A stretch of DNA of 64,000 nt from Candidatus Woesearchaeota archaeon (lineage in GTDB: Archaea; Nanobdellota; Nanobdellia; Woesearchaeales; UBA12501). Made by a program: the position numbers and the translations under genes. The notes under the pieces were generated by a model, which was given only the letters and a program-made list of their open reading frames with translations, had not been told where the DNA came from and made no database searches. Location: the NCBI GenBank assembly GCA_030651375.1, contig JAUSFM010000016.1, forward strand, positions 62,001 through 126,000, given 5' to 3'. This document shows positions 1 through 46,785 of the stretch, one piece after another (position 1 is the stretch's first letter; each line of letters starts with the position of its first letter).

Positions 1-2018
1 GTCTCGATTTCCTTGTTGTGGTACCGTTTGATAAGCATGTCCGCCTCTTCTTCGGCTTGCGCCTTAATGGCATTGATTTTTTCAACTGCTTCCCGAGGAA
101 GATCCATGTCGGAAATTGCCGTCGAGAAACCGTACTTGCTCAAGGTGAACACGGCAAGCTTGCACATTTTTGTCAGCACATCAAGCGTGAAGTGCTCGCC
201 GTACTGCTTGTGCAGGTTGCGCAGCATAAGCCCTGCGCCGTGGCCAAGGTTTGCAGAGTCCATGACTCCCTTGAGGATTTTTCCTTTGCGGATAATGAGG
301 TCGGGCTCTTCTTTTTTCTTGTTTCCTTTGGTGAAGCCGGAAAATCTGAAATCCGCAGGGAGCAGGCAGCTGAACACGTCTTTGCCCGTGACCATGTCTT
401 TGTTCGGCAGGCGGGAAAAATCGTTGATGCCTGACGCGGAAAGCAAGTCAACAGCATCGCGGTGTTTCATGACCGTGTCGTCGTGGGTTAGCACATAGGA
501 TCCTGAAATTGCGTCTTGAATGCAGCCGATAACGCTCAAGCCATACCGCGGGCTAATCATCTGCAGGTCAACCATCATAAGCATTTCTGTTTCAGCGCGT
601 GCTTCTTCAGTTTGAGGAATGTGCAGGTTCATTTCGTCGCCGTCAAAATCCGCGTTGTACGGATGGCACACTGCTGGATTGAGGCGGAATGTTTTGTGCG
701 GCAACACGCGAATGCGGTGCGCCATCATTGACATTCTGTGCAAACTGGGCTGGCGGTTGAAAACAGCAAGGTCACCGTCCATGAGGTGGCGCTCAACAAT
801 GTATCCCGGCTGAATTTCTTCGAGCAGCTGCTCTTTTGTTTCGTCGGTGATTTTCTTTTTCTTGCCATCCGGCCGTGTAATATAATTGGCACCTGGATAG
901 TTTTTCGGGCCGCGCTCAATAAATTGTTTGAGGTACTCCCGGTTCCATTCAGTGACGCGTTCAGGAACCGTCAGTTTGCTGGCAACAATTTTTGGAATGC
1001 CGACCTCATTCATCTTAATCATCGGATCAGGAGAGATGACGGTACGTGAAGAAAAGTTTGTGCGCTTGCCGGCAAGGTTGTGCCTGATGCGGCCTTCCTT
1101 GCTTGTAATGCGCTCGGTAATTGTTTTCAGCGGCTGGCCCGAGCGATGGCGTGCTGGCGGGAGCTGGGCAACATTGTTGTCGAAAAACGTGGTGATGTGG
1201 TATTGTAACAAATCCCAGAGATCTTCGATGATAATTTCAGGAGCACCGGCGTTGATGTTTTCAAACAGGCGTTGGTTGATACGGACAATGTCGCCGAGCT
1301 TGTGGGTTAAGTCATCCTCACTGCGCTCGCCACTTTCAAGAGTGATCGATGGGCGAATGGTGACGGGAGGGATTGCCATGACCGTGAGTATAATCCATTC
1401 CGGCCTGCTCACGTCAGAATTCAGGCCGAACATTCGGCAGTCGTCATCGCTCAATTTTTCAAGTCGTGTTCTGATTTCAATGGGTGAAAGCCGCTTGTCA
1501 TTTTCCATGTAGGTGTACGGCTTGTCGAGTGAAATTTTGTATTGTTTCGCCTTGCAGTGCGGGCATTTGCTGATTGTTTTCAGGCCGGCAATAATTTCCT
1601 TGATTCTTCGGCGCCGCGCTTCAAGGCCGCCTTGTGCTTCTGCTTCAGCCAGCACTTCAGTGTACTGGTCAACCTTGTTTTGTGGAATAAGCACTTTGCC
1701 GCACTCGCGGCACGCGCAGCGGAGCATGGTGAGGATGAGCGGGACAAATTTGATATGGATAATCGGCCGGGCAAGCTCAATGTAGCCGAAGTGGCCGATG
1801 CACTCTTTGAGTTTTGAGCCGCAGGTCTTGCATTTCAATCCGGGATCGATAACGCCGAGGCGAATGTCCATGAGGCCGCCGTCAACCGGGTAGCCCTCTT
1901 TGTCGTAGAGTTCCGGCGTGACAATCTTTGCAGAGGCCATGCTCTTGATCATTTTTGGCGAGAGCAGTCCGAAGGAAATGCTTTCAATTTCTTTGTAGGG
2001 GTAGCGTTCGCGGTCCAT
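1..2018 (-). CDS. rpoA1: DNA-directed RNA polymerase subunit A' (partial, C-terminus outside window)
   Basis: Largest-subunit N-terminal half of the archaeal RNA polymerase, which carries the catalytic Mg-binding loop. Reverse translation from the ATG at 2018 gives 672 codons running off the window edge; the family is usually near 870-900 residues, so roughly the last 200 are missing. A zinc site (C63, C66, C73, H76) lies near the N-terminus, a second CxxC pair follows, and the universal catalytic motif NADFDGDEMN begins near residue 455. The gene starts 29 bases after the rpoB1 stop and is the fourth gene of a rpoH-rpoB2-rpoB1-rpoA1 operon. Identification is certain. Confidence 0.97.
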   Translation of the reverse strand, partial: MDRERYPYKEIESISFGLLSPKMIKSMASAKIVTPELYDKEGYPVDGGLMDIRLGVIDPGLKCKTCGSKLKECIGHFGYIELARPIIHIKFVPLILTMLRCACRECGKVLIPQNKVDQYTEVLAEAEAQGGLEARRRRIKEIIAGLKTISKCPHCKAKQYKISLDKPYTYMENDKRLSPIEIRTRLEKLSDDDCRMFGLNSDVSRPEWIILTVMAIPPVTIRPSITLESGERSEDDLTHKLGDIVRINQRLFENINAGAPEIIIEDLWDLLQYHITTFFDNNVAQLPPARHRSGQPLKTITERITSKEGRIRHNLAGKRTNFSSRTVISPDPMIKMNEVGIPKIVASKLTVPERVTEWNREYLKQFIERGPKNYPGANYITRPDGKKKKITDETKEQLLEEIQPGYIVERHLMDGDLAVFNRQPSLHRMSMMAHRIRVLPHKTFRLNPAVCHPYNADFDGDEMNLHIPQTEEARAETEMLMMVDLQMISPRYGLSVIGCIQDAISGSYVLTHDDTVMKHRDAVDLLSASGINDFSRLPNKDMVTGKDVFSCLLPADFRFSGFTKGNKKKEEPDLIIRKGKILKGVMDSANLGHGAGLMLRNLHKQYGEHFTLDVLTKMCKLAVFTLSKYGFSTAISDMDLPREAVEKINAIKAQAEEEADMLIKRYHNKEIE

Positions 2019-2047: not shown

Positions 2048-3871
2048 TTAGTATTTTGTTTTGAGTTTCAATCGTGGATAAATTCCCAATGACTTGAATT
2101 CGTCAAGGATGAGCTTGAAAGCATAGGACAGTTCAATGTCGCTCACCTCGACGTTATCGCCGCAGAGCGGGCACACTGACTGGTCCTTGAATTCATTGTA
2201 AATCGCAATGGTGCCGCAGCCTTCGCACACCGGCACAATGGTTTTGTCGGAATCAAACCGCTCCTTGAGCAGCAGCGATGCGCCGTGCGCAACAAAGGTG
2301 TCCTTTTCCATTTCTCCCAATCGCAGGCCGCCTTCTTTTGAGCGCCCTTCAGTGGGCTGGCGCGTGAGGAGCTGGATGGGGCCGCGTGCGCGCGAGTGAA
2401 TTTTGTTTGCGACCATGTGTTTGAGTTTGAGGTAGTACATGTTGCCGATGAAAATACGCACGGGGTAGCGTTCTCCGGTTTCTCCGTGGTACATGCTTTC
2501 AGTGCCGTTTTCACGGAAGCCCATAGAAAGGAGTTCCGTCCGCAGCGATTCTTCGGACTCGGCGTCAAACGTGGTACCGTCGACATACCGGCCGCTGAGT
2601 GAACCGACTTTGCCGCCGATCATTTCAATCAAGTGTGAAACAGTCATACGTGATGGAATACCGTGAGGGGTGAACAGGATATCAGGAACAATGCCTGATG
2701 CAGAGCAGGGCATATCAGCGTGGGGCACGAGCAAACCGACAACACCTTTTTGTCCGTGGCGTGATGTAAATTTGTCGCCGATTTCAGGAATGCGCTGGTC
2801 TCTGATACGCACCTGCACGAGCTTGTTGCCCTCTTCGTTTTCGGTGATGGCGACAAAATCAACAATGCCCTCTTCGCCGTGCTTCATTGAAAAGGAACTT
2901 TCACGGCGAGTGGTTGAGGCAAGGCTGTACTCGTTCATGCCGCTCAAGAAGCGTGGAGGAGAGCTTTTTCCAATCACCACATCGCCTTCAGCAACTGGCG
3001 CTTCAGGATAGATAATGCCGTCCTCTTCAAGGAAGCGGTAATCGTGCTCTGACTTGTAGCCCTTGACTTCTTTGTCAGGAACGCAAATACTGTCAGTGAG
3101 TCCGCCGGCGTAGCGCAGCTCCTCGACAATCGCGGGCCGGAAATAAGTGGAACGGCCAAGGCCGCGCTGCACTGAACCAAGGTTTAAGACGATAGCGTCT
3201 TCCATGTTGTATCCCTTATAGGCCATGACTGCAACGACGAGATTTTGACCAGCCGGGTGCTTGTCATATTCAGTAAGATCATTAATGATGGTTTTCACAA
3301 TCGGACGCTGGGGGTGGTGGAGAATGTTAACATCCATGTCGATGCGCACGGGGAAATTCGCTGCGTAAAAGCCGAGCGCCTGTTTCTGGTTTTTCGCGCC
3401 CATGGCAATACGCGCACCGGGCGAGTGGTTGGCAAACGGCACGAGGCCGCCGCAAATGCCGAAAATAATAGTCGGAGAAATTTCAAGATGGGTGTGATCT
3501 TTAGTAAGTTCTTCTTCAGTAAAGGCGATGAGCGTATTTTCTTCCTCGAGCGAGTCGAGGTATTCAATGACGCCCTGCTTGATGAGGTCAGCAAAGGTGA
3601 TTTCGTTTTTTTCGAGCTGTTGCAAATGCTTTTCGAGGAGGAGTGATTTACCATCCTTTGCCACAATCAGGGGCCTGCGAACTCTGCCGCGGTCGCTCTC
3701 GATAAATACCTGATTGCGCTGGGCATCAAACCTGATGTTGAGCGCGCTGCTTAATGCGCCTTTTCGCCTGCTTGAAACGACTTTGTCGACGAATTCTACG
3801 GGATTTTCAATAGTCCCGACAAATTTGTCGTTCAGGTACACTTCAGCGCCGTTGGTTTCAGGTTGAGCCAT
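2048..3871 (-). CDS. rpoB1: DNA-directed RNA polymerase subunit B' (C-terminal half of B)
   Basis: The 607-residue protein matches the C-terminal half of the archaeal/eukaryotic second-largest RNAP subunit. Visible landmarks are YKGYNMEDAIVLN near residue 220, GDKFTSRHGQKGVVG near residue 370, and GGLRLGEMEKD, followed by a C-terminal zinc ribbon (CEGC...CPLC). It works together with the separately encoded B''; the split is a trait of several archaeal lineages. It begins 58 bases after rpoB2 ends, within the same operon. No truncation is evident. Confidence 0.97.
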   Translation of the reverse strand: MAQPETNGAEVYLNDKFVGTIENPVEFVDKVVSSRRKGALSSALNIRFDAQRNQVFIESDRGRVRRPLIVAKDGKSLLLEKHLQQLEKNEITFADLIKQGVIEYLDSLEEENTLIAFTEEELTKDHTHLEISPTIIFGICGGLVPFANHSPGARIAMGAKNQKQALGFYAANFPVRIDMDVNILHHPQRPIVKTIINDLTEYDKHPAGQNLVVAVMAYKGYNMEDAIVLNLGSVQRGLGRSTYFRPAIVEELRYAGGLTDSICVPDKEVKGYKSEHDYRFLEEDGIIYPEAPVAEGDVVIGKSSPPRFLSGMNEYSLASTTRRESSFSMKHGEEGIVDFVAITENEEGNKLVQVRIRDQRIPEIGDKFTSRHGQKGVVGLLVPHADMPCSASGIVPDILFTPHGIPSRMTVSHLIEMIGGKVGSLSGRYVDGTTFDAESEESLRTELLSMGFRENGTESMYHGETGERYPVRIFIGNMYYLKLKHMVANKIHSRARGPIQLLTRQPTEGRSKEGGLRLGEMEKDTFVAHGASLLLKERFDSDKTIVPVCEGCGTIAIYNEFKDQSVCPLCGDNVEVSDIELSYAFKLILDEFKSLGIYPRLKLKTKY

Positions 3872-3929: not shown

Positions 3930-5417
3930 TTATTTGATAAATTTGAGGCCGCACTCTTTCAGCGACTTGAGGATGGGCGCCTCGGGCTCCTCGGTTGTGA
4001 CTTGGGCAAGCATTGCCAGATTTTTACGCAGGCCGATGTTGGTACCTTCAGGAGTTTCAACCGGGCATAACCTGCCGAGATGCGTCGGATGCAAACCGCG
4101 CGCCTCGAAGTTTTCCTGCGTTGCGCTTAACGGCGACACGACACGCTGGAGGTGACTCATAGTTTCGGTAAAGTTGAGGCGCTGGATACGCTGGCTGATG
4201 CCTTTGCGCGAGCCAACCCAACTGCCGGTTGCCAGCGAGCTGTAAATTCTCGACGTCAAGAGCTTGTCGCGGATAATGACTTTTATCGACGGGAATTTGC
4301 CGCGCTTAACAATGCGCTGGAAATTGTAGAGCAGGTCGCCAATCAGCACTTTGATGTTGGCGCGGAACAAGTCAGCCATGAGGTCGCCGCTCAACTTGAG
4401 GCGTTTGTTCATGTAATGGTCCTTGTCATCCGGCGGGAGCTCTCCACGACTGACAGCGATATATTTGCGCAGGATTTTGCAGAGGTTGAATGATTTTGAA
4501 ACGCGGTCTTTTGCCTCAAGGCCGAGGTGGGGAAGCAGGTATTTGTCGAGGAGTTCGCGCATGCGCTCAATTCTGATTTCGCGCGCCTGCATGATGCCGA
4601 TGTGCTTTGCAAGCCAGTCAAGCGCGTCGTCTTGTGTTTTTGTTGCGACAAATTCATACAAGTTAACAATGATTTCGTCGTTCTGCGTGCCGGTGCTGAT
4701 GGTTTTCATGATTTCATCATCGCGCAGCATGCCGAGCGCCTTGAGCACCATGATGATGGGTACACGCTTGACACGGGTGAAAGTGAGGTAAAACAATCCA
4801 TTTTTCATGCGTTCGAACGTGTGTGGAATTTTGAATGAGCCGCGCTCGGAAAAAAGCCGGCCGACAAACGCGCTGACGCCAACGGTTTCTTTTTCGACGA
4901 GCAGTTTGTTGGCCGCGAGGTCTTCGACGGAGATCAGCACTTTTTCCGTGCCGTTGATAATGAAGTAGCCACCGGGATCGTCCGGGTCTTCGCCCTTTTC
5001 AATGAGCTCGTCCCGGTTAAGCCCTTTAAGGTGGCAGTATTTTGATTTCAGCATGATGGGCATGCTGGCGATTTGGGTGGTGAACATTTCGCGCCGCACA
5101 CCGTTGACGTGCGCGGAAACTTCGATGAAGCACGGCGCCGCGTAAGTTATTTTTCGCAGGCGCGACTCAACCGGAAAAATGTTTTTCTTGGAGCCGTCAG
5201 CTTCAGTAATGGTTGGCTTTTCCAGCCAGATTTTGTCAAGCACAATTTTGAATTCGTCAATGTTATGGGGAATAATGGTGGGAACGATGTCCTTGTTTTC
5301 CTCGACAATGCGCTGGAGCTCAAAATCAAGGAAGTTGTTAAACGACTCAATGTCAGAACCAATCAGGCTGTTTTCCTGAAAGTATTTCGTGAGCAGGACG
5401 TGGCTGTACTTACGCAT
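3930..5417 (-). CDS. rpoB2: DNA-directed RNA polymerase subunit B'' (N-terminal half of B)
   Basis: N-terminal half of the RNAP second subunit, 495 residues from the ATG at 5417. The open frame extends 27 codons further upstream, but that part overlaps rpoH and looks unlike protein, while MRKYSHVLLTKYF is the expected beginning. Typical B'' segments are present, including GGYFIINGTEKVL near residue 150 and a C-terminus ending with the Rif-region-like RRLCPVETPEGTNIGLR type stretch. The start overlaps the rpoH stop by 8 bases, consistent with translational coupling. Confidence 0.96.
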   Translation of the reverse strand: MRKYSHVLLTKYFQENSLIGSDIESFNNFLDFELQRIVEENKDIVPTIIPHNIDEFKIVLDKIWLEKPTITEADGSKKNIFPVESRLRKITYAAPCFIEVSAHVNGVRREMFTTQIASMPIMLKSKYCHLKGLNRDELIEKGEDPDDPGGYFIINGTEKVLISVEDLAANKLLVEKETVGVSAFVGRLFSERGSFKIPHTFERMKNGLFYLTFTRVKRVPIIMVLKALGMLRDDEIMKTISTGTQNDEIIVNLYEFVATKTQDDALDWLAKHIGIMQAREIRIERMRELLDKYLLPHLGLEAKDRVSKSFNLCKILRKYIAVSRGELPPDDKDHYMNKRLKLSGDLMADLFRANIKVLIGDLLYNFQRIVKRGKFPSIKVIIRDKLLTSRIYSSLATGSWVGSRKGISQRIQRLNFTETMSHLQRVVSPLSATQENFEARGLHPTHLGRLCPVETPEGTNIGLRKNLAMLAQVTTEEPEAPILKSLKECGLKFIK

Positions 5418-5667
5418 GCACAACCCCCCGGTAAAAAATCGCATCGCCCGCGGTTGGGCTTTTGCGGAGAATCTTGACGACATCGCCTGGCTTGACACTT
5501 AACGGTTGGATGGCAGGGTCGGTCGGCAGAATTTTTGGCAGGTCTTTCAGCGTGATGTGGTACGTTGCAAAGAGCTCCTGCTTGTCTTTGTCAGAGAGCT
5601 TCTGGTGCTCAGGAATCAGCACGTGATTCGTGACGGAAACGACAGGTGTTTTTTGTTTTCGTAGCAT
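5410..5667 (-). CDS. rpoH: DNA-directed RNA polymerase subunit H (RPB5-like)
   Basis: An 85-residue protein homologous to the C-terminal assembly domain of eukaryotic RPB5. The conserved features are HVLIPEHQKLS near the start, ITLKDLPKIL in the middle, and the signature PGDVVKILRKSPTAG near the end. It heads the polymerase operon, with the two tRNA genes immediately upstream on the same strand. The length is usual for archaeal RpoH. Confidence 0.96.
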   Translation of the reverse strand: MLRKQKTPVVSVTNHVLIPEHQKLSDKDKQELFATYHITLKDLPKILPTDPAIQPLSVKPGDVVKILRKSPTAGDAIFYRGVVHA

Positions 5668-5714: not shown

Positions 5715-5749
5715 CATTCATCAGCAGATGTGCCGTGCACACCACTGAA
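5715..5749 (-). other. Noncanonical T-loop intron (59/60) of tRNA-Lys
   Basis: About 35 bases interrupt the T-loop between A59 and T60 (boundary ambiguous by one T). Removing them restores loop TTCAAAT and a five-pair T-stem GCGAG/CTCGT (one G-T pair). The insert has the inverted pairs ATTCA/TGAAT and TGTGC/GCACA, as expected for a bulge-helix-bulge fold. Confidence 0.85.
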
Positions 5750-5771
5750 TTTGAACTCGCGACCACTGCAT

Positions 5772-5801
5772 CGCTTCCAAAACACCCCTTCGTGTTTTTG
5801 T
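5772..5801 (-). other. Canonical 37/38 intron of tRNA-Lys
   Basis: About 30 bases separate A37 from the 3' anticodon stem; the boundary is ambiguous by one A. The insert contains the inverted arms AAAACAC and GTGTTTT, so it can form the intron hairpin of a bulge-helix-bulge substrate for the archaeal splicing endonuclease. Confidence 0.85.
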
Positions 5802-5856
5802 TAAAAGTGCAGTGCTCTACCAGGCTGAGCTACCGGCCCATAGCATATGAATAAAA

Positions 5857-6003
5857 CGCCCTGGCCGGGACTTCCATTCGGTATGTCGCCGGTAGTCAGT
5901 TGCTTGTCGTCGACAAACGATACCGACCAACGACAAACGGATTTTGAACCCGGGTCGCAACCGTGACAGGGTTGCGTGCTAGACCGGACTACACTACCAG
6001 GGC
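5857..6003 (-). tRNA. tRNA-Asp (anticodon GTC) with a T-loop intron
   Basis: The acceptor is GCCCTGG/CCAGGGC with discriminator G. The anticodon arm CAACC-CTGTCAC-GGTTG is uninterrupted and reads GTC. The T-stem CCGGG pairs with CCCGG only after about 72 bases are removed from the T-loop. CCA is not encoded. It sits upstream of tRNA-Lys in the same orientation; a TATA-like CATATA lies about 15 bases upstream of the 5' end. Confidence 0.93.
5871..5942 (-). other. Noncanonical T-loop intron (59/60) of tRNA-Asp
   Basis: About 72 bases sit between A59 and position 60 of the T-loop (the boundary is ambiguous by one base). The insert contains the inverted arms CGGTAT/ATACCG and TTGTCG/CGACAA, so it is strongly self-complementary. 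The insertion point matches that of the neighbouring tRNA-Lys intron. Confidence 0.85.
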
Positions 6004-6147: not shown

Positions 6148-6735
6148 TCACTTCAACACATTATATAAGTCAGTATCCTGTTCAAGGATCCTTCGTGCGC
6201 GGTAGACGCGAGACATCACGGTGCCGTCAGGTAGGCTCAACGCTCTGCCCGTTTCGTGATAGTGAGATTCACCAAAAAAAGTGAGCCATGCTGTTGCGCG
6301 AAAATCACCGGGAAGTTCGCCAACCGCACGCTGGGCACGTGCCATGATTTCTCGCCGAGCAACAATGGTTTCAGGTGTCTCTGGATGGCTTGCTGCATGG
6401 AATTCAGGATCTTCATCCGACGTGAAACGCTCCCACTCAATCTTTTTCTGGTGATGATGGTTAAGGAATGAGCGGACAGCAATTTTGTACAGCCACGCGC
6501 GGAGATTAGTGCCAGTTTTGTAGCTATCGTGAAAGCGGGCAACTTTGACAAATGTTTCTGAAAGAATGTCATCTGCATCAGCCCGATGAGCTGTTTGTTT
6601 GAGCAAATAAGCGTAGAGCTCGTCTCGGTACTGGCCAAACACGGCACTCAGAGGTTTGCCGTCTAAGAAAATAGTTTCTTTAGTTTTTGTGGAACGAACC
6701 CGATCATCAAGCGCAGCACATTCATCAGATACCAT
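6148..6735 (-). CDS. ECF-type sigma-70 family protein
   Basis: A 195-residue protein with the two-domain layout of extracytoplasmic-function sigma factors. Residues ~35-105 read as region 2 (YRDELYAYLL, then DADDILSETF, then LRAWLYKIAVRS). Residues ~135-190 read as region 4, with the helix-turn-helix core LPDGTVMSRVYRARRIL. In bacteria such proteins direct RNAP to promoters; archaeal RNAP normally uses TBP and TFB, so the role here is unknown. It lies between hisS and the tRNA/rpoH-rpoB2-rpoB1-rpoA1 group, all on the same strand, which argues against contamination. A TATA box 24 bases upstream implies a leaderless transcript. It could instead act as a DNA-binding regulator. Confidence 0.85.
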   Translation of the reverse strand: MVSDECAALDDRVRSTKTKETIFLDGKPLSAVFGQYRDELYAYLLKQTAHRADADDILSETFVKVARFHDSYKTGTNLRAWLYKIAVRSFLNHHHQKKIEWERFTSDEDPEFHAASHPETPETIVARREIMARAQRAVGELPGDFRATAWLTFFGESHYHETGRALSLPDGTVMSRVYRARRILEQDTDLYNVLK

Positions 6736-6758: not shown

Positions 6759-6766
6759 TATAAAAA
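6759..6766 (-). promoter_or_regulatory. TATA box of the sigma-like gene
   Basis: TTTTTATA on the minus strand is centred about 27 bases before the ATG at 6735, the archaeal spacing for a transcript that begins at or next to the start codon. Confidence 0.55.
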
Positions 6767-6787: not shown

Positions 6788-8107
6788 TCATCCCTTCAAT
6801 CGCGTGCAGACCTCATGTACCCCCAGCAGCTCTTCAGTGCCGGACAGCATGTCTTTCAGCTTGACTTTGTTCTGCGCAAGTTCCTGCGCACCGATAATAA
6901 GAACATAGGGAATGCCGAGCGCGTTGGCATAGTCCAAATTTTTGCTGATGCCTCTGCCGATGATATCGATGTCAGCGTTGATGCCCTCTTTACGGAGTGT
7001 GCTCAAGATGGTGAGAGATTCATTGAGCGTTTTGATGGGGATTAAAAAAACCTGCGTCACGGATTTTTTCATAGGCTCTTTTTCCGCGGCACGGATTATT
7101 TTTAGCTGCTCAACAATCGGCTCAATGCCGAAACTGATGCCCACTGCAGGATATTCGCCGCTGCCCAAAAAGGTGCCAATCATTCGGTCGTAGCGCCCAC
7201 CGCCGGCAAGAGAGGATTTCACGTCGCTTTCAGACGAATCTTTGAGGAACACCTCAAACACCGGGCCGGTGTAGTATGCCAATCCGCGGGAAAGCGTCGG
7301 CTCGAATGATACATTTGCCTCGTCACCGAGCCGGTCAACATAGGCAAGGAGCTCTTCAATCTCGCGCAGGCCTTCTTGTGCAGCGGGTGTGGTAATTTTT
7401 TCGCGGAGAATGGCAATCTTGTCACTGTTTTTTCCGGGCAGTGTCAGTAAGGAAAAGAGTTGCTCAACTTGAGTGGGAGAGAGCCCTTTTTGTTTCAGTT
7501 CTTTTTTTACGTCAGCAGACCCAATTTTTTTGAGTTTGTCAACTGCCACGAGCACATCGACATTTTTTTCAGTGAGTCCGAGAAACGCGAGCAAGCCATC
7601 GAGAAATTTTCGGTTGTTGATTTCTATGGTCACATCGAAGTTTATTTGGTGGAAGAATTTTTGGGCAAGCACCACCAGCTCGGCATCAGCCAGCATATTT
7701 TTTGTGCCAACCACATCAACATCACACTGCCAGAATTCGCGGTACCTCCCGAGTTTTATCGGGCCGTCGCGAAATACTGGGCCGATTTGATAGCGCTTAA
7801 ACGGAAGTTTGAGCGTTGGATTCATGCCAAAAAAGCGTGCAAAGGGAACGGTGAGGTCGTATCGAAGGCAGAGATCACGCTCGCCTTGATCTTTGAGAGT
7901 GAATGTTTCTTTCAAAATTTCTGCGCCGCCGGCATATTTTGATGCGAGCACGTCATACCGCTCGAGAATGGGCGTTTCCAGCGGAGAAAAGCCGAACTGC
8001 TCGAACAAGCGAACCAGCGTGGCGATTAGTTCATTGCGCATAATTTTTTCTTCCGGCGGAAAGTCCCGCGTGCCGCGGGCGCGCTGGAGCTCAAGTTTTT
8101 CAGGCAT
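6788..8107 (-). CDS. hisS: Histidyl-tRNA synthetase
   Basis: Class II synthetase that charges tRNA-His. The N-terminus ARGTRDFPPEE, motif 2 region (RYQIGPVFRDGPIKLGR), the histidine-binding segment LSRGLAYYTG (usually LVRGLDYYTG) and motif 3 region (GGRYD, then AVGISFGIEP) are all present, followed by a C-terminal anticodon-binding domain. The ATG at 8107 is preferred over a GTG at 8116 because a TATA box centred at ~8134 predicts transcription starting near 8108. The promoter overlaps the end of the nucleoside hydrolase gene, so hisS can be transcribed on its own as well as with the upstream genes. Confidence 0.95.
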   Translation of the reverse strand: MPEKLELQRARGTRDFPPEEKIMRNELIATLVRLFEQFGFSPLETPILERYDVLASKYAGGAEILKETFTLKDQGERDLCLRYDLTVPFARFFGMNPTLKLPFKRYQIGPVFRDGPIKLGRYREFWQCDVDVVGTKNMLADAELVVLAQKFFHQINFDVTIEINNRKFLDGLLAFLGLTEKNVDVLVAVDKLKKIGSADVKKELKQKGLSPTQVEQLFSLLTLPGKNSDKIAILREKITTPAAQEGLREIEELLAYVDRLGDEANVSFEPTLSRGLAYYTGPVFEVFLKDSSESDVKSSLAGGGRYDRMIGTFLGSGEYPAVGISFGIEPIVEQLKIIRAAEKEPMKKSVTQVFLIPIKTLNESLTILSTLRKEGINADIDIIGRGISKNLDYANALGIPYVLIIGAQELAQNKVKLKDMLSGTEELLGVHEVCTRLKG

Positions 8108-8128
8108 GGTTTTCACGTGGTGTTCTGG

Positions 8129-35827: not shown

Positions 35828-36850
35828 TTAGTTCAGCAAATTTTCTTTTCGAAGTAATTCTCGTATCTCGTCTTTGGTGAGATGCAGGGTGTGTTGGGAT
35901 GAAAATGAGCCCTGCGCAAGGCCATGATGGTGTTCCTCAACCGCTTCAGTGAAATGTGGAACGTTTGACTTTGATTGTACGACAAACATATCGTCAAGAA
36001 TTTTCAGATAGGGCAACTCGTCGGCAACCATAAGGCTTTCGTGGAGCTTTTCGCCGGGGCGGATACCTATTTCTTTGAGCACGATTGACGAAGAAGCGTG
36101 TCCGTGTTTTGGCGCAAGCTCTTCAATCAATACGTCGGCAAGATCCTTGACCTTGAGCGCTTTCATTTTGAGGATAAAAATTTCTTTTCCCTGCATAATC
36201 GGCGGCACGCGCAAAATTAATGAGACGGCCTCAGAGAGTGACATGCAGAATCGTGTCATGTGAGGTGATGTTAAGGTCACGGGGCCTCCTTTCTGGATTT
36301 GGCGCTTGAAAATCGGAATGACTGAACCACTTGAGCCGAGCACATTGCCGAAACGCACGCAGGCAAACTTGGTAACGGTTGGACCGAGGTCTGCGGTCAG
36401 GGTTAATTTTTCGCCGAGCAGTTTTGTGGCGCCCATGGTGTTGATGGGATTGACCGCTTTGTCAGTAGAGATAAAAACAAAGTGCTTGACGTTGTGCTCG
36501 CGTGCAGAATCAAGAGCGTTTTGTGTGCCGATGACATTCGTCTGAAGCGCCTCGAATGGGTTGTACTCGCATAATGGAACATGCTTCAGCGCAGCAGCGT
36601 GGAATATAATGTCCACATTTTTCATGGCAAAATCAAGGCGCTGTTTGCTGCGCACATCGCCGATAAGGTGGCGGATTTTTTCTGACGGAAGGTCATGCTG
36701 GAGATTGAAGTGGCCTTCCTCGTCGTTGTCAAACACCTTGACAATGCGCGCGCCCAATCCAATGAGCTGGCGGACAATTTCAGAACCAATCGAGCCGCAG
36801 CCGCCGGTAACGAGTACTTCCTTGTCCTGATAAAATGATGCGTTGGTCAT
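35828..36850 (-). CDS. UDP-N-acetylhexosamine 4,6-dehydratase (CapD/PglF/LegB-like)
   Basis: A 340-residue extended SDR. The NAD site is TGGCGSIGSEIVRQL; catalytic residues lie in ISTDKAVNPINTMGATK, with Met in the usual Tyr place, giving the T-M-K triad seen in this dehydratase branch. It would convert a UDP-GlcNAc-type sugar into a 4-keto-6-deoxy intermediate, the first step toward bacillosamine, legionaminic or pseudaminic sugars. The ATG overlaps the aminotransferase stop by 4 bases. Confidence 0.88.
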   Translation of the reverse strand: MTNASFYQDKEVLVTGGCGSIGSEIVRQLIGLGARIVKVFDNDEEGHFNLQHDLPSEKIRHLIGDVRSKQRLDFAMKNVDIIFHAAALKHVPLCEYNPFEALQTNVIGTQNALDSAREHNVKHFVFISTDKAVNPINTMGATKLLGEKLTLTADLGPTVTKFACVRFGNVLGSSGSVIPIFKRQIQKGGPVTLTSPHMTRFCMSLSEAVSLILRVPPIMQGKEIFILKMKALKVKDLADVLIEELAPKHGHASSSIVLKEIGIRPGEKLHESLMVADELPYLKILDDMFVVQSKSNVPHFTEAVEEHHHGLAQGSFSSQHTLHLTKDEIRELLRKENLLN

Positions 36851-38013
36851 ACTGCCCCCGGTACATCCTGTGGTACATTCGGTACATCCTGCTGCCGTGC
36901 TTCGGCAATCGATGCAGTCAGCGCTGCCACGACGGTGTTTATATCCTTTTCGGTCATCTGCGCATAGAGCGGGAGAATGAGCGTTGTTCTGCTGATTTTT
37001 TCAGCGATGGGAAAGTCACCTTCTTTGAAGCCAAATGTTTTGTAGAACGGCTGGAGGTGAATGCACGGCGAAAAGTATGCCTTGCTCGCAACGCCGCGGG
37101 CGTGCAGCCCTTCAATGACTTTGTCCCTGCTGATTCCGTCAGCAACCCGCACCGGAAATACAAACCAAGTGTGGGTATTGCCCTGTGCGGTTTTCGGAAG
37201 AATGATGCCGGAAATAGTTTTTAATTTTTTCAGGTATTTTTGCGCAATACGAATTCGCTTGGCAAGCAGCATATCGAGCTTCGCAAGCTGGGAGCAACCG
37301 AGCGCGGCGCTCATCTCGGTCATGCGGTAATTATATCCCAATCGGTGGTGCGTGAGCCATTGCATATTTTTGACGTCTCTGCCTTGATTGCGCATGCTGT
37401 TGCAGAGCTCTGCAATGGCCGCGTCGTTGGTAACCACCATGCCGCCTTCGCCCGTCGTCATTTGCTTGTTTGGGTAGAACGCGAATACTGCAGCGTCACC
37501 GAATGTACCCACTTTTTTTCCGTGGTACGTTGCGTCGAGCGCCTCGCATGCATCTTCGATAACTTTGAGATGATGGGAACGGGCAATCGCCATGAGCTCG
37601 TCCATGGCACAGCTCTGACCAAAGATATGCACGGGCAGCAGGGCTTTTGTTTTTTCGGTGATTGCGTTTTTCACGAGCGCAGGATTGAGGTTGAAGGTTT
37701 CTTCATCAACGTCAACAAACACCGGCTTTGCTTTTTCAAACAGAATACAGTTTGCCGAGGCAACAAATGAAAAAGGAGTGGTAATAACTTCATCTCTTTC
37801 GCCAATGCCGCACGCGCGCAGCGCAAGATGTAACCCTGACGTGCCCGAGTTAACCGCAAGCGCGTGCGCTGTTCCGATGCGACCGGCAAACTGGCGCTCA
37901 AACTGTTCAGTCTTGGTGCCCATGCTAAGCTGGCCGGACTTGAGCACCTGCACAACACCGCGAATGTCAGCAGGGGTGATGTGTGGTTTGGAAAGGGGAA
38001 TCATAGGGACCAT
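36847..38013 (-). CDS. DegT/DnrJ/EryC1 family sugar aminotransferase
   Basis: About 388 residues. PLP-binding features are VEDACEALDATY (Asp) and AFYPNKQMTTGEGGMV (Lys), and the substrate region HHRLGYNYRMTEMSAA is typical. It should aminate the 4-keto sugar made by the overlapping dehydratase gene. The ATG at 38013 is preferred over a TTG at 38025; a TATA box at 38041-38052 places transcription start close to it. Confidence 0.88.
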   Translation of the reverse strand: MVPMIPLSKPHITPADIRGVVQVLKSGQLSMGTKTEQFERQFAGRIGTAHALAVNSGTSGLHLALRACGIGERDEVITTPFSFVASANCILFEKAKPVFVDVDEETFNLNPALVKNAITEKTKALLPVHIFGQSCAMDELMAIARSHHLKVIEDACEALDATYHGKKVGTFGDAAVFAFYPNKQMTTGEGGMVVTNDAAIAELCNSMRNQGRDVKNMQWLTHHRLGYNYRMTEMSAALGCSQLAKLDMLLAKRIRIAQKYLKKLKTISGIILPKTAQGNTHTWFVFPVRVADGISRDKVIEGLHARGVASKAYFSPCIHLQPFYKTFGFKEGDFPIAEKISRTTLILPLYAQMTEKDINTVVAALTASIAEARQQDVPNVPQDVPGAV

Positions 38014-38040
38014 AGACGTCTGCAATAAGAGGCTCTTTAA

Positions 38041-38052
38041 AAATATTTATAC
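38041..38052 (-). promoter_or_regulatory. TATA box of the aminotransferase-dehydratase operon
   Basis: GTATAAATATTT on the minus strand sits about 33 bases before the ATG at 38013. Confidence 0.5.
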
Positions 38053-38171
38053 GTTTTGAACATAGATATTCAAGAAGTAGTGTCGTGTAGGGTGGTTTAT
38101 AAATGAGCAGGCAATATTTTTAAATAAACGGTTATTTTCAACAACTAGGGGAATCAACAACAGGAGGAACA

Positions 38172-40436
38172 ATGCACACGGTTAGAATTGGCACCAGACT
38201 CATCGGCAACGGACAGCCCGCTTTTATCATCGCTGAAGCAGGGGTGAACCATGACGGCAGTCTCGAGAAAGCAAAAAAACTGGTGGACATTGCGAAAGAG
38301 GCAGGCGTTGATGCGGTCAAGTTTCAGACCTGGAAAACTGAAGCCCTGATTTTGCAGGGAACAAAAAAGGCAGCGTATCAAGAAGAGAATACAAAGGCCG
38401 GCAAAGAAGAATCACAATTTGACATGATAAAAAAACTGGAGCTTTCCTACAACGATTTCCGTGAGATTAAAAGATACTGCGACAAAAAAGATGTTCTTTT
38501 TTTATCGACGCCGGATGAAGAGGAAAGTGCAGAGTTTCTGAACGGTCTAGGCGTTCCGTGTTTCAAAATTGGTTCAGGAGAATTGACTAACTACCTTCTG
38601 TTGAGATACATCGCAAAATTCGGCAAGCCAATCATTCTCTCAACCGGTATGGGAACAATTGAAGAGTGCAGAAAAGCGCGTGATGCCATTTTCAGCACGG
38701 GCAACAAAAACCTTATCATGCTGCACTGCACGTCTGATTATCCAACGCCGTTTTCAGATGTCAACCTGCGCACTATGGAAACGCTGGGCACGGAAATGAA
38801 CCATGATGCTAATGTCCCCGTTCTCATCGGCTATTCCGACCACACCGAAGGAATTACCGTACCGGTTGTTGCCGTGGCGCAGGGTGCAGCAGTCATTGAA
38901 AAACATTTTACCTACGACAAAAGCGCAGCAGGCCCTGACCACAAAGCATCGTTGAGCCCAAAAGAGTTACACGACATGGTCAAAAAAATCCGTGAAACAG
39001 AAACAATTCTCGGCAGCCAAAAAAAACAGCCAACCCTGCGCGAGCAGGAAACAAAAAAAGTCGTGCGCAAATCGCTTGTTGCAAAGGTCCCAATTGCGCA
39101 GGGAGAAATAATCACTGAAGAAAAAATAACAGCGAAGCGCGCTGATGCACGAGGATTCACCGCAGACCAATGTGATGAAGTCATTGGAAAGCGTGCGGCA
39201 AAAAACAGCGGTGTTGATGAAATTATCGACGAAAAGAGCATTGAAATACCACCACACGTCAGCGCACCACCAAAAACAAAACGGAAAATCTGTGTGGTGA
39301 CAGGCACACGGGCAGAATATGGTATTCTTCGGCCAGTCATTGCAGCAATCAAAAAACATCCCCACCTTGAGCTCCAGCTCATTGCAGCGGGCATGCATTT
39401 AAGCGACGAATTCGGCATGACAAAAAATGATATTGAACAGGACGGACATCAAATTGATGCTGCTGTTGCAATGCTGCCGGAAACTGATGATGACGGGGCA
39501 ATGGCAGTTGCAGCAGCACGGGGCATCACTGGATTTGTTGATGCATTCAAAAAAATAAGTCCGGGCATTGTGGTGGTGCTTGGCGACCGCATTGAGGCAT
39601 TCGCCGCAACCATTGCCGCATCTTTTCTGAATATTCCGGTTGCCCATGTTTCGGGCGGCGACAAAACACGCGCAGGCAGAGACGAGGAAATGCGCCATGC
39701 CATTACCAAATTTGCAAAGATTCATTTTCCAGCAACCAAAACCAGCGGCGAACGCATCACCAAAATGGGCGAAGATGCATGGCGGGTGTTTGTCGTCGGG
39801 GAGCCAAGCATTGATACCATGCTGCAGGAACGGCTGCTGGAAAAAGAAGAGCTTAAAAAATATGCCCTTTCTCTTGATTTCACCAAGCAGTATGCTGTTG
39901 TAGTGCAGCATCCTGTCACCACCGAAGCTGAAAAAGCAGGAGAACAGATGCGCGCCACGCTCGAAGCAGTGCACAAGGAAAAAATCCCTGCGCTTATCTT
40001 TTATCCCAACGCAGACAGCGGCGGCAGACGAATGATTGAGGTCATTAAAGAATATGAAAAGATACAAGGATTCTTGGTGGCAAAAAGTCTCCCGCATACT
40101 GCCTATCTTAGCGTGCTGAAGCATGCAGCGTTCATCATCGGCAACTCAAGCAGTGGCATTGTCGAAGCGCCGACGCTCAAAGTGGCTGCAATAAATATCG
40201 GCATCCGACAGGAAGGCCGCGAATGTGCGTCGAATGTGGTTCATGTCGATGACAATGAAGACAATGAACAACAAATTCGCCGTGCAATTACAACAGTTTT
40301 TTCCCTGTCATTCAGGGAACAGCTGAAAAACTGCATCAATCCCTACGGCAGCGGTGACACCAGCACAAAGATTGCTGAAGTGCTCGCCACGATTCCGGTC
40401 AACGACCGGCTGTTAAAAAAAACAATTACCTACTGA
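38172..40436 (+). CDS. Fused NeuB-like nonulosonate synthase and NeuC-like UDP-sugar 2-epimerase
   Basis: A 754-residue fusion. Residues ~1-295 are the NeuB TIM barrel (FIIAEAGVNHDGS, AVKFQTWK, GSGELTN, GYSDHTEG, EKHFTYDK), and ~295-357 the C-terminal SAF/antifreeze-like domain. After a short linker, residues ~370-750 are a hydrolysing UDP-GlcNAc 2-epimerase (VTGTRAEYGILRPV, VLGDRIEAFAA, ISGGD-like HVSGGDKTRAG, GNSSSGIVEAPTL). One chain thus combines the step that releases the free hexosamine and the step that condenses it with phosphoenolpyruvate. An AGGAGG lies five bases before the ATG. Confidence 0.93.
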   Translation: MHTVRIGTRLIGNGQPAFIIAEAGVNHDGSLEKAKKLVDIAKEAGVDAVKFQTWKTEALILQGTKKAAYQEENTKAGKEESQFDMIKKLELSYNDFREIKRYCDKKDVLFLSTPDEEESAEFLNGLGVPCFKIGSGELTNYLLLRYIAKFGKPIILSTGMGTIEECRKARDAIFSTGNKNLIMLHCTSDYPTPFSDVNLRTMETLGTEMNHDANVPVLIGYSDHTEGITVPVVAVAQGAAVIEKHFTYDKSAAGPDHKASLSPKELHDMVKKIRETETILGSQKKQPTLREQETKKVVRKSLVAKVPIAQGEIITEEKITAKRADARGFTADQCDEVIGKRAAKNSGVDEIIDEKSIEIPPHVSAPPKTKRKICVVTGTRAEYGILRPVIAAIKKHPHLELQLIAAGMHLSDEFGMTKNDIEQDGHQIDAAVAMLPETDDDGAMAVAAARGITGFVDAFKKISPGIVVVLGDRIEAFAATIAASFLNIPVAHVSGGDKTRAGRDEEMRHAITKFAKIHFPATKTSGERITKMGEDAWRVFVVGEPSIDTMLQERLLEKEELKKYALSLDFTKQYAVVVQHPVTTEAEKAGEQMRATLEAVHKEKIPALIFYPNADSGGRRMIEVIKEYEKIQGFLVAKSLPHTAYLSVLKHAAFIIGNSSSGIVEAPTLKVAAINIGIRQEGRECASNVVHVDDNEDNEQQIRRAITTVFSLSFREQLKNCINPYGSGDTSTKIAEVLATIPVNDRLLKKTITY

Positions 40437-40438
40437 CC

Positions 40439-41470
40439 ATGACACGCGAAATTGGAAGTGATTTTCATCTGCCTCTGGGGCTGGTGGTTTCAGGGAAGAA
40501 AACGGTGTGGAGTACTGGCCAAACGCTGCTCGCAAGCGGCCGCGCGTGTCTCAAAGCGATTATCAGACAAGAATCGCTTGCAGAAAAAACAATTTTGATT
40601 CCTGCATATCTGTGCGATTCAGTTCTTCTGCCGTTACAGCAAGAAAATATGAAAATTATTTTTTACACGGTGACAAAAAAGTTGGAGATTGACGAAAAAG
40701 ACCTGCTCAAAAAAATAAAAAAAGAAAACCCCTCCGCAGTCCTTATCATCCATTACTTTGGGTGGATACAGCCGAATATACAAACTATCTGCGCAGAAAT
40801 AAAAAAACAAACAAAACAACAGTGCATCATTATTGAGGATCTCGTGCAAACGTATCTCACTGAATATAGCCCGTCAGGTGATTACTGGTTTAACAGCTAC
40901 CGCAAGTTTCTGCCGGTTGCTGACGGCGCATTTCTTGGCGGGAAAAAAATCCCCACCCCACTGCCCTGCTTCCCGGCAGCACGCATACTCGCATTGCTGT
41001 TAAAAAATAGTCGCGCACTCAAGCCGCTGTACCGTGCATTGTTTACCCACCATGAGCAAAAAGCAGTGAATGGAAAAAAAGTTGAGGGAATGTCGCGTTT
41101 TTCAAAATATGTGCTGGCACGGATTAATGAAAGTGCAGTAAAAAATATCCGGCGAGCGAATTATGAGTATCTGGCGCAACGGCTCGGCGCCGAAACAACG
41201 GCGAAAATGTTCCATCAAAAGCTCCCCGCAATGGTGTGCCCGCTGGGCCTTCCCATCATCGCCAAAAACAGAAATACTCGAGATGCACTCCAAAAATATT
41301 TAATAGGCCAAAGAATATACTGTCCGGTGCACTGGAAGCTTCCACCTGAAATACGAAAAAAAGAGTTTCCCGAAAGCCATGCAGTCAGCGAGCAGATACT
41401 CACGATTCCGATTGATCAGCGGTATACACAAAAAGATATGGAGCGGATTGCCCAATGCCTCAAGAAATAA
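40439..41470 (+). CDS. PLP-dependent aminotransferase-like protein (DegT type, divergent)
   Basis: A 343-residue divergent relative of DegT aminotransferases. It shows IPAYLCDSVLLPL, the cofactor aspartate region IIEDLVQTYLTE, and a putative PLP lysine in NSYRKFLPVADGAFLGG. Much of the C-terminal region is atypical, so the reaction is uncertain. It begins two bases after the NeuB-NeuC stop and overlaps the following gene by 16 bases, so it is part of the nonulosonate operon. Confidence 0.72.
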   Translation: MTREIGSDFHLPLGLVVSGKKTVWSTGQTLLASGRACLKAIIRQESLAEKTILIPAYLCDSVLLPLQQENMKIIFYTVTKKLEIDEKDLLKKIKKENPSAVLIIHYFGWIQPNIQTICAEIKKQTKQQCIIIEDLVQTYLTEYSPSGDYWFNSYRKFLPVADGAFLGGKKIPTPLPCFPAARILALLLKNSRALKPLYRALFTHHEQKAVNGKKVEGMSRFSKYVLARINESAVKNIRRANYEYLAQRLGAETTAKMFHQKLPAMVCPLGLPIIAKNRNTRDALQKYLIGQRIYCPVHWKLPPEIRKKEFPESHAVSEQILTIPIDQRYTQKDMERIAQCLKK

Positions 41471-42573
41471 AAAAAACAAAAAAAGAAAAAAAGATACAAG
41501 AAGTAAGTGTGTACACCACGGCGGATGCTGGATGGAACCAGTATGTTGATGCAGCTCCGGCTCCTGACATTTATTTTCGTGCAGAATACGCGCGCATCTA
41601 TGAAACCAGCTACACGCAGGCAGTTGATAGCACGTTCGGCGGCAAGGCGCTTCTGTTTGTGCTGGGCACCAAAAAAGAATTTGTTGCACTCCCCGTATTG
41701 AAGCGCCCGATTCCCGGCACAGAACTGTTTGATCTTTGCTCGCCGTACGGCTACTCCGGCCCGCTTGTTAAAGCAGAAAATCCGGCAGCAGTGGTTGCTG
41801 AATTTTATGCAGCGCTGGAGAGGTATGCGCAGGCAGAGGGAATTGTCAGCGCGTTTGTGCGGTTCAACCCTGTGCTGAACAATCATCGCGAGGAGCAGGG
41901 TGCAGAACGGATCAATACGACCGTTATCGTTGACCTGCGCAAAACAGCACAAGAATTAGTTATGGAGATGGACAAAAAAGCGCGCACCGCCATGCGCAAG
42001 GCGCAGCGCGAAGGAGTAATTGTTGAAACCATTCCCTGCGGTAAGGGAAGCGAGAAAGAGCAGACCGCAGTCCACGAATTGACACTCTTGTATATCGCAT
42101 CCATGCGAAAAAGAAATGCCGCGCCCCACTATTTTTTCCCCCAGATATTTTTTGAAAATACCGTTGAAATGCTCGGCAAAAGCGCAGTTATTTTTGTTGC
42201 GCGCTACCGGAACCAGCCCATCAGCGCGGCAATTTTCATGCACGCGTATGGAAACATGCATTATCATTTTTCAGGCATTGATCCGGAATATCAGCGGCTC
42301 TATCCCACGAACCTGCTCTTGATGGAGGCGGCAATGTGGGGAAAAAAGAATGGATGCACAGTCCTTCATCTCGGCGGCGGTACGAGCAGCAGCGACCAGG
42401 ATCCACTGTTCCGTTTCAAAGCAGCATTTGCCCGCGGCCGTAGTGAATATTATGTTAAAAAAATTATTTTTGATCAAAAAAAGTATGATGCACTGGCAAA
42501 CAAGCGGAAAGAAGAATTACGCCAGCAGGGCAAAGAGCCAAAGCAGGCATTTTTCCCGGCATATCGCGGATGA
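41455..42573 (+). CDS. FemAB/GNAT-fold acyltransferase-like protein
   Basis: A 372-residue protein with the tandem GNAT layout of FemAB/acetyltransferase_6 proteins: KARTAMRKAQREGVIVE near residue 175 and YHFSGIDPEYQRLYPTNLLLMEAAMWGKKNGC near residues 270-300 are typical. Within this operon it may acylate an amino group of the nonulosonate precursor; the bacterial FemAB relatives instead use aminoacyl-tRNA. A lysine-rich tail opens the protein. Confidence 0.75.
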   Translation: MPQEIKKTKKEKKIQEVSVYTTADAGWNQYVDAAPAPDIYFRAEYARIYETSYTQAVDSTFGGKALLFVLGTKKEFVALPVLKRPIPGTELFDLCSPYGYSGPLVKAENPAAVVAEFYAALERYAQAEGIVSAFVRFNPVLNNHREEQGAERINTTVIVDLRKTAQELVMEMDKKARTAMRKAQREGVIVETIPCGKGSEKEQTAVHELTLLYIASMRKRNAAPHYFFPQIFFENTVEMLGKSAVIFVARYRNQPISAAIFMHAYGNMHYHFSGIDPEYQRLYPTNLLLMEAAMWGKKNGCTVLHLGGGTSSSDQDPLFRFKAAFARGRSEYYVKKIIFDQKKYDALANKRKEELRQQGKEPKQAFFPAYRG

Positions 42574-42582
42574 TGTTGATAC

Positions 42583-43404
42583 TTACCAGCAGCTTAATCC
42601 GCCATCAACAAAAATATTCTGGCCAGTGATGTAGGTCGACGCGCCTGATGCAAGAAATACCACAATGCCGGCGAGCTCTTCTTTCTGTGCCATGCGCCCC
42701 ATCGGCACACGGCGTGAATAATTCTGAACAAACGCAGCATCTTGATTGGTGAACACCCCGCCGGGGCTGACGCAGTTCACGCGAATGCCTTTGCCGCCGT
42801 AATACGCTGCGAGATATTTGGTGAGCGCAATAATGCCGCCCTTGGTTGCGGAGTACACCGCTGGGCTGGGGGAAAGTGATTTTTTCATGCCATCAAAATA
42901 AATGCGCTGGTCAGGCGCGTAGGCACCATAGATGGATGAGATGTTGATGATGACGCCCTTTTCAGAGCCCGATTTGGTGCCTGAATTTTTCAGCATGTGC
43001 TTGCCCACTTCCTGTGTGCACAAAAAAGTGCCCCGAAGATTCACATTCGACGTGAAATCCCAGTGCTCTGGCAGGTACTCTTCAAAGGTTTCTTTTTCAT
43101 CCTTGGGAACGCCTTGCGCATTGTTGATGAGGATGTCAATTTTGCCAAATGTGTTCACTACAAAAGAAACAGCATCGCGAATGGACGCCTGTTCAAGAAG
43201 ATTCAAATGAATACCCACACATGGTGTGCCGTGCTCTGCTGAAATTTTTTTTGCTTCTTCTTCCACTTTTTCCGTGAGAATATCAGCAAGGACAACGGTT
43301 GCGCCGGATGCGGCAAGCGCACGCGCATAGACTGGCCCTAACAGACCAGCCCCGCCGGTAATGAGCGCTACTTTTCCGGTGATGTCAAAATGGTTTTTAA
43401 GCAT
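42583..43404 (-). CDS. Short-chain dehydrogenase/reductase (PtmA-like)
   Basis: About 273 residues with the SDR motifs TGGAGLLGPVYARAL, NNAQG, the Ser in NISSIYG and Y-x3-K in YSATKGG, and GGL near the end. Related SDRs occur in sialic/legionaminic acid loci of bacteria (for example PtmA). The open frame extends 24 codons upstream, but the ATG at 43404 gives the usual N-terminus. It diverges from the NeuA fusion gene. Confidence 0.85.
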   Translation of the reverse strand: MLKNHFDITGKVALITGGAGLLGPVYARALAASGATVVLADILTEKVEEEAKKISAEHGTPCVGIHLNLLEQASIRDAVSFVVNTFGKIDILINNAQGVPKDEKETFEEYLPEHWDFTSNVNLRGTFLCTQEVGKHMLKNSGTKSGSEKGVIINISSIYGAYAPDQRIYFDGMKKSLSPSPAVYSATKGGIIALTKYLAAYYGGKGIRVNCVSPGGVFTNQDAAFVQNYSRRVPMGRMAQKEELAGIVVFLASGASTYITGQNIFVDGGLSCW

Positions 43405-43503
43405 GAAACTCCAGAGAAATGGGTAGTATTTAAACTTATCCCGGCATTTGCCAGTGCGGAAATCGTATATAGTCAAGCAACATAATTAATTTAAAGGAGG
43501 GCA

Positions 43504-43539
43504 GGGTACCTTTAAAAATTCACCCTTTTAAAAGGCACC
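43504..43539. promoter_or_regulatory. Imperfect palindrome at the 43542 start
   Basis: GGTACCTTTAAAA and TTTTAAAAGGCACC face each other across a 7-8 base spacer directly upstream of the ATG of the NeuA fusion. The AT-rich centre could hold the TATA element, so the repeat may be an operator. Confidence 0.35.
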
Positions 43540-43541
43540 TT

Positions 43542-45668: not shown

Positions 45669-45721
45669 TGCTTATTAAAGCCGCCGTAAAGTTTAAAAAC
45701 AAAGACCAGCGTTGACGTCGT

Positions 45722-46753
45722 ATGAAACCAAACAACAGCTCCGCTGGCTCAAGCAGGCCGCTGGTCTCAGTTATTATTCTCAACTGGAACCAACCGGACT
45801 ACACGGTTGCGTGTGTGAAGTCAGTGCTTACCCAGCAGCTTTCTGCAGGGGAGTTTGAAGTTTTTTTGGTGGACAATGGCTCCAACGACGATTCGTATCT
45901 GCGATTTAAAAAAGAATTTGGCAGCAATAAAAAGATAACGATTATTGAAACAGGGAAAAATCTTGGCTACACCGGCGGCAACAACATAGCGGCGAAACAA
46001 ACGCGGGGAAAATACATTGTCATTTTGAACAATGACACTGAAGTTGAGCCGGGATGGCTTGAGGCGCTGGTTCGTGTGATACAGTCAGATGAAAAGATTG
46101 GTGCAGTGAACTCGTATGAAATTCGTGCAGGCAAAAAAGTGCCGCTGGAAACATACGCAGCATACGAATTTCCCCTGAATGTATTGCAATATGGGGTAAA
46201 AGTGTTACGGAAAAAGAAACTCGATGTTAAAAAATTGAAAAAGGGAATGCCCGTTGAAGTATCTGCTATCAAAGGATGCTCGTTTATTTACCGCAAAGAG
46301 CTTGCGCCGGTGCCGTTTGACGATGATTATTTTATTTATGCAGAGGAAACAAAGTTGTCATGGCTGCTGCGGAGCCGTGGCTACAAAATAATGCTTGCGC
46401 CGACGTCAATAGTGAACCATTACCATAACGTGGTGCGAAAATCAAACAAAGAGTTTTCAAAATTCGCCGTGTATCTCGGAGAGAGAAACCGGCTGATGAA
46501 TCTCCTCACGTTTTACCAATGGGGAACTACGCTGAAGATGCTGCCACTCTTCAAACTGCAATCGTTGGCATCAAATATTATTCAATGGCGCAAAATTCCA
46601 TATCGGTTTAAGGCGTATTGGTATATTATGACGCATCTGAAAATGGTGTGGAAAAAAAGAAAAGAAATCCAATCAGCGCGCAGCGTGCCTGACAAGGCAC
46701 TGCTTGAGCATGCATGGCGGCTGTATCCGCGGGCTGCTGCAGAATTTGATTGA
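45722..46753 (+). CDS. GT2 family glycosyltransferase
   Basis: A 343-residue enzyme with the GT-A motifs VIILNWNQPDYT, LVDNGSNDDS, NLGYTGGNN and the metal-binding ILNNDTEVE, resembling rhamnosyl-type transferases. The C-terminal ~100 residues are hydrophobic/basic and may touch the membrane. It lies 53 bases after the NeuA fusion and ahead of the CDP-alcohol phosphotransferase. Confidence 0.87.
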   Translation: MKPNNSSAGSSRPLVSVIILNWNQPDYTVACVKSVLTQQLSAGEFEVFLVDNGSNDDSYLRFKKEFGSNKKITIIETGKNLGYTGGNNIAAKQTRGKYIVILNNDTEVEPGWLEALVRVIQSDEKIGAVNSYEIRAGKKVPLETYAAYEFPLNVLQYGVKVLRKKKLDVKKLKKGMPVEVSAIKGCSFIYRKELAPVPFDDDYFIYAEETKLSWLLRSRGYKIMLAPTSIVNHYHNVVRKSNKEFSKFAVYLGERNRLMNLLTFYQWGTTLKMLPLFKLQSLASNIIQWRKIPYRFKAYWYIMTHLKMVWKKRKEIQSARSVPDKALLEHAWRLYPRAAAEFD

Positions 46754-46785
46754 TTTGATTAGAGACATGATGGTATGGTGAAACA

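Follow-up and report, generated by a model that had tools for sequence, protein, structure and literature searches.

Sigma factors described in bacteria and archaea

The closest described systems are the bacterial ECF sigma factors of the SigH/SigR type (group 4), exemplified by M. tuberculosis SigH and S. coelicolor SigR. The archaeal protein analysed here is like them in its sigma-2 and sigma-4 architecture, the order of these domains, its size, its fold and its -35 recognition helix. It differs from them in three respects: identity to its bacterial matches is only 30-38%; a zinc-type anti-sigma neighbour is lacking; and the region 2 residues Q59, N88 and R95 are replaced. The cell also differs, as it has no bacterial RNA polymerase and its enzyme carries an archaeal clamp and flap.

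The archaeal polymerase is taught as using TBP and TFB only. In this cell the initiation role is filled by TFB, encoded by a separate single gene, and the ECF protein matches sigma profiles rather than TFB. One proposal holds the helix-turn-helix units of TFB and sigma to be homologous (PMC8131849). The bacterial docking sites are the beta' coiled coil for sigma-2 and the beta flap-tip helix for sigma-4; holoenzyme formation is impaired by a single change at E. coli beta' R275, E295 or A302, and archaea commonly lack the flap-tip helix (PMC8321222).

The first description of sigma factors in archaea is that of Rinke et al. 2013 (as cited in PMC6126073). The accessible part of Castelle et al. 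2021 reports that sigma-70 genes (fam00359) are prevalent in Woesearchaeota, that mis-binning was excluded, and that no anti-sigma factor was found. Going by these descriptions, the DPANN sigma-70 proteins resemble the present one in the kind of organism, the superfamily and the lack of a detected anti-sigma factor; that part of the 2021 report gives presence at the level of the family and singles out neither ECF-type members nor RNA polymerase docking sites. In light of both reports, the protein adds to archaeal sigmas that are already known, and the novelty that the original prediction implied for a sigma factor in archaea falls away. What is new is the residue comparison of polymerase and sigma proteins: the clamp is without the three docking residues, and the flap-tip helix is missing, regardless of whether a sigma is present.

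The ECF gene and its surroundings

The window, meaning the whole 64,000-nucleotide stretch that was analysed, is part of contig C16 of a Woesearchaeales-type DPANN genome of 1.30 Mb, rated 100% complete and 0.91% contaminated; the Woesearchaeales type is judged from its gene content and from agreement with published work. This genome holds one TBP, one TFB and a single archaeal Rpb1 (A') gene; it has no second, bacterial-type RNA polymerase. The features at the locus are:

1..2018, minus strand: rpoA1 (A'), running past the window edge, with the archaeal clamp coiled coil
2048..3871, minus strand: rpoB1 (B'), from Pfam and alignment to P. furiosus / T. kodakarensis RNAP
3930..5420, minus strand: rpoB2 (B''), from Pfam
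5410..5667, minus strand: rpoH (Rpb5 C-terminal type), from Pfam
5930..5999, minus strand: tRNA-Asp(GTC), between the ECF gene and rpoH, from ARAGORN (Rfam tRNA 24.4 bits, below gathering)
6148..6735, minus strand: ECF-type sigma-70 family protein, 195 aa, from profiles, PDB sequence match and predicted fold
6190..6336, minus strand: sigma region 4 (residues 134-182), -35 recognition helix PxGTVxSRxxRAR intact, from Pfam Sigma70_r4_2, the SigR region 4 fold match and residue counts
6445..6639, minus strand: sigma region 2 (residues 33-97), from Pfam Sigma70_r2 and residue counts
6759..6766, minus strand: TATA-like box TTTTTATA, -31 to -24 from the ECF ATG, placed against the upstream-region profile
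6788..8116, minus strand: hisS, histidyl-tRNA synthetase, 52 bp upstream of the ECF gene on the same strand, from Pfam

The frame at 6148-6735 (minus strand) is complete, with an ATG start, and its product is confirmed as a genuine ECF-type sigma factor, an identification far beyond chance. Sigma regions 2 and 4 had been proposed in the correct order and size from three motifs, now placed at residues 53-62 (DADDILSETF), 79-86 (LRAWLYKI) and 168-182 (LPDGTVMSRVYRARR), and the profile searches bear this out. Pfam Sigma70_r2 matches at 44.2 bits (E 1.7e-11; cut-off 24) and the NCBIfam sigma70-ECF model TIGR02937 at 63.8 bits (cut-off 42.9); Sigma70_r4_2 alone scores under its own cut-off (18.6 against 25.7 bits). 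The top-scoring NCBIfam model is of the SigH type, and the closest PDB sequence is an M. tuberculosis SigH chimera (E 3.5e-20, residues 37-184).

Eleven archaeal ECFs went into an AlphaFold2 model with a mean pLDDT of 80.8 and a pTM of 0.45, which makes the relative placement of its two domains uncertain. The first structural matches of the whole model are SigH chains. Taken domain by domain, the model fits SigR region 2 (1h3l) with a TM of 0.80 and rmsd of 1.1, and SigR region 4 (5fgm) with a TM of 0.82. The protein therefore has the make-up of the ECF group: only sigma-2 and sigma-4, in that order, in about 180-200 aa, together with the fold, the Sigma70_r2 and TIGR02937 scores over cut-off and a -35 helix of the form PxGTVxSRxxRxR. 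Taken in aggregate, the profiles, the PDB match and the predicted fold indicate that the identification is correct.

The position of TTTTTATA coincides with the -30 to -20 peak of TATA-like sites across 46 upstream regions of the same genome, as expected from the archaeal TATA box noted ahead of the gene in the original prediction, and fits a leaderless archaeal promoter. The GC content of the gene (0.485) and its codon use are within the range of neighbouring genes.

The same prediction set the gene among rpoH-rpoB2-rpoB1-rpoA1, tRNA and hisS genes. These neighbours are present, and the ECF gene is outside the RNA polymerase operon, being separated from rpoH by about 480 bp that hold the tRNA gene(s). 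The arrangement is not conserved: each of six relatives (three from the same family) has a different set of genes flanking rpoH/rpoB, with neither an ECF gene nor hisS among them. This indicates that adjacency to the polymerase genes is accidental, and a functional linkage of the ECF gene with the operon is rejected. No zinc-type anti-sigma neighbour (HxxxCxxC, the one type searched for) is found at this ECF gene or at 15 other archaeal ECF loci.

Two further observations concern the window itself. At 5730-5841 on the minus strand, a tRNA-Lys-like gene whose anticodon loop contains an intron can be made out by eye, and neither ARAGORN nor Rfam reports one. At 35828-49103, inspection by eye finds NeuB-like and CMP-sugar-transferase-like proteins clustered with sugar epimerases, which suggests that this archaeon has nonulosonic (sialic-type) acids among its surface sugars.

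Distribution and acquisition of sigma genes

Of 371 genomes across the phylum with a completeness of 80% or more, 121 match Pfam region 2 over its cut-off. TIGR02937 is passed in 123 of 292 genomes of the order, and none of four archaeal control genomes exceeds the Sigma70_r2 or TIGR02937 cut-off. Mis-assembly or contamination is rejected as the source of the ECF gene: archaeal genes lie on both sides, composition is host-like, and sigma genes occur in closed or near-closed relatives (G019 and G364, one contig each; G174, two contigs).

In 353 genomes of the order the ECF finds 17 relatives, 24-34% identical to it, and the nine other genomes of its own family hold no orthologue. When bacterial and archaeal genomes are scanned, bacteria supply each of the best 80 relatives, at 30-38% identity. 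One scan of viral contigs returned no relative, and a viral origin is set aside on that result. A bacterial acquisition retained in an archaeon, as originally proposed, is well supported by the exclusively bacterial best 80 matches, the archaeal flanks, the ordinary GC content and codon use, and the TATA box.

The archaeal copies do not fall into one clade in a tree that joins 18 of them with 60 bacterial ECF sequences. Parsimony gives 8 changes of domain, at least 3 of which are forced by well-supported branches. The AU test rejects a single archaeal clade by a small margin (p 0.038), a result to be read with the long branches in mind. Archaeal RpoD-like proteins are likewise interspersed with bacterial ones, on longer branches. 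The picture that these trees suggest is of repeated acquisition and then faster evolution.

The host genome encodes four sigma-70 proteins: the window ECF and three more. On contig C3 (L005:6781-9003) lies an RpoD-like paralogue of 740 aa with regions 1.2, 2, 3 and 4. In the parts that read the -10 and -35 elements it is almost identical to E. coli RpoD, and it shares 62-66% identity with proteobacterial RpoD over regions 2-4. It also carries an extra C-terminal XRE-type helix-turn-helix (HTH_3/HTH_31, slightly under cut-offs). Contig C9 (L006:5819-14001) holds a tandem sigma-70 pair of 450 and 432 aa. By eye, this pair and a 609-aa neighbour appear to have a common N-terminal domain of ~150 aa, and G008 (L034) has a similar N-terminus. 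The next protein is at least 1198 aa long; neither it nor the 609-aa protein has a Pfam match, and a ParA-like gene is nearby.

Two observations concern other loci. In G176 and G177 (L091:4812-5925, L097:928-2011), an ECF gene overlaps an O-methyltransferase-like gene, and the two may form a functional pair. In some archaeal proteins (L029:1147-2820, L013:1378-2775), a single chain seemingly combines two sigma modules or bears additional region-4-like ones.

Residues, docking surfaces and possible functions

The -35 helix of the window ECF has all of its characteristic residues: P169, G171, T172, V173, S175, R176, R179 and R181. In region 2, A54, D56 and W81 are retained, and three near-invariant residues are replaced: Q59S, N88R and R95H, which are the Q of DLxQE, the N of IxxN and the R at the RRK end. 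Among 117 bacterial ECF sequences, these positions carry Q in 115, N in 110 and R in 114. Position 59 aligns with sigma70 Q406. The glutamine is also missing in 8 of 17 other archaeal ECFs, hence in half of the archaeal set as a whole, with differing replacements (S, H, A, N), as against 2 of 117 bacterial ones (Fisher p 1.1e-5, a plain count that ignores kinship, the tree having given too few supported independent pairs). Judged from these residues, region 2 may be partly decayed where it contacts bacterial polymerase and reads the -10 strand. The losses bear on sigma-like working and not on descent.

The polymerase was compared in 30 genomes: 16 picked because they match sigma strongly and 14 in which sigma region 2 has no match. 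The clamp hairpin could be read in 15 of the former (the motif search missed G028) and all 14 of the latter, and the flap in all but G159. The archaeal hairpin aligns with that of E. coli free of gaps. At the positions equivalent to beta' R275, E295 and A302 it carries I, L and H, identically in the 15 genomes with sigma and the 14 without, so that no clamp adaptation is seen in the sigma-bearing set. The flap-tip helix is absent from every genome in which the flap was read, and the window rpoB1 aligns to the P. furiosus / T. kodakarensis RNAP through the flap with no such helix added. Apparent in-frame stops in rpoA1 of G021, G265 and G266 are merely alignment overrun at the gene ends. The same clamp and flap with or without sigma point to a polymerase without adaptation to sigma.

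Together, the unadapted polymerase and the loss of near-invariant ECF residues lean toward a DNA-binding regulator, the first of the two roles that the original prediction had left side by side. The reading that ranks first, at a probability of roughly 45%, is that the ECF is a bacterial sigma of the SigH/SigR kind that was acquired horizontally and has settled as a resident gene of the archaeon, with sequence-specific DNA-binding regulation through region 4 as its most likely job. Its direct basis comprises the identity and fold of the protein, its archaeal context, the promoter position, the residue changes and a polymerase without bacterial docking features. We infer DNA binding in the cell, target sites and a direction of regulation as follows: the gene would be transcribed from its own TATA promoter in the archaeal host; the intact region 4 helix would read a short -35-like element at archaeal promoters; and the ECF on such an element would help or hinder recruitment of TBP, TFB and RNA polymerase. 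Against this reading, an ECF region 4 on its own usually binds DNA weakly, and the SigR-type motif GGGAAT-N16-19-GTT shows no excess in the window (1 match against 2.3 expected).

Ranked second is a working alternative initiation factor, possible but doubtful, in which region 2 would sit on the archaeal clamp coiled coil, region 4 on a -35-like element, and a few promoters would be opened without TBP/TFB. The gap-free alignment of the clamp hairpin is consistent with this, as is W81, at the promoter-melting position, which the window ECF shares with 14 of 17 other archaeal ECFs and which fits real initiation better than DNA-binding regulation. The I/L/H docking positions common to both sets of genomes, the absent flap-tip helix and the missing Q59, N88 and R95 argue against it. 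Pairs of -35/-10 elements upstream of genes (16 against 9.5 +/- 3.1) are not clearly enriched either.

Further evidence for initiation comes from 37 archaeal RpoD-like relatives, which lie on long branches. The residues counted in them have core-binding, melting, -10 and -35 roles that we take from general knowledge of sigma70. Core-binding residues are kept at 92% (D403), 86% (E407 and N409) and 78% (Q406); the melting/-10 residues F427, Y430, W433, W434 and Q437 at 81-97%; and the -35 residues R584, E585, R588 and Q589 at 92%. Average columns of the same regions are kept at roughly 30-70%. Melting residues contact only opened DNA, and their retention thus favours real initiation somewhere in this archaeal group; from the counts, these proteins still look selected for promoter opening. 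The region 3.2 finger, in contrast, is poorly kept in the same relatives (G520 19%), which weighs against initiation. For the RpoD-like paralogue, initiation would come ahead of DNA-binding regulation, the reverse of the order for the window ECF.

A third reading, an unlikely one, takes the ECF as a recent import with no settled function, drifting toward loss. Its absence from nine other family genomes and from the rpoH flanks of six relatives, the sporadic distribution with several independent acquisitions, and the lost near-invariant residues would all be expected of such a gene. The intact 195-aa frame, host-like composition, full -35 helix and well-positioned TATA box would not, and sigma genes are retained in 121 of 371 genomes of the phylum. 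It is very improbable that the target of the ECF is a bacterial partner's polymerase and not that of its host: such partners have been proposed for some Woesearchaeota (PMC8204110), and RpoD-like relatives keep bacterial core-binding and promoter residues for which their own polymerase has no matching sites, but reading the ECF sequence reveals no obvious export signal, and its region 2 losses should weaken binding to a bacterial polymerase too.

Beyond this one gene, a tentative proposal is dual initiation in Woesearchaeales, with TBP/TFB serving most genes and acquired RpoD-like, FliA-like and ECF sigmas, re-adapted to the clamp without the flap-tip contact, possibly serving a subset. About one third of the sampled genomes of the phylum hold bacterial sigmas, some of them near-perfect RpoD copies, beside a polymerase without the known docking sites. 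The residue data make both the sigma-initiation and the regulator readings testable with purified proteins. If the regulator reading applies, sigma became a plain DNA-binding regulator many times over. Alternatively, if sigma drives the archaeal polymerase, ideas on the divergence of the two initiation systems would have to change; and if dual initiation is true, the sole polymerase of the cell would be served by initiation factors of both domains.
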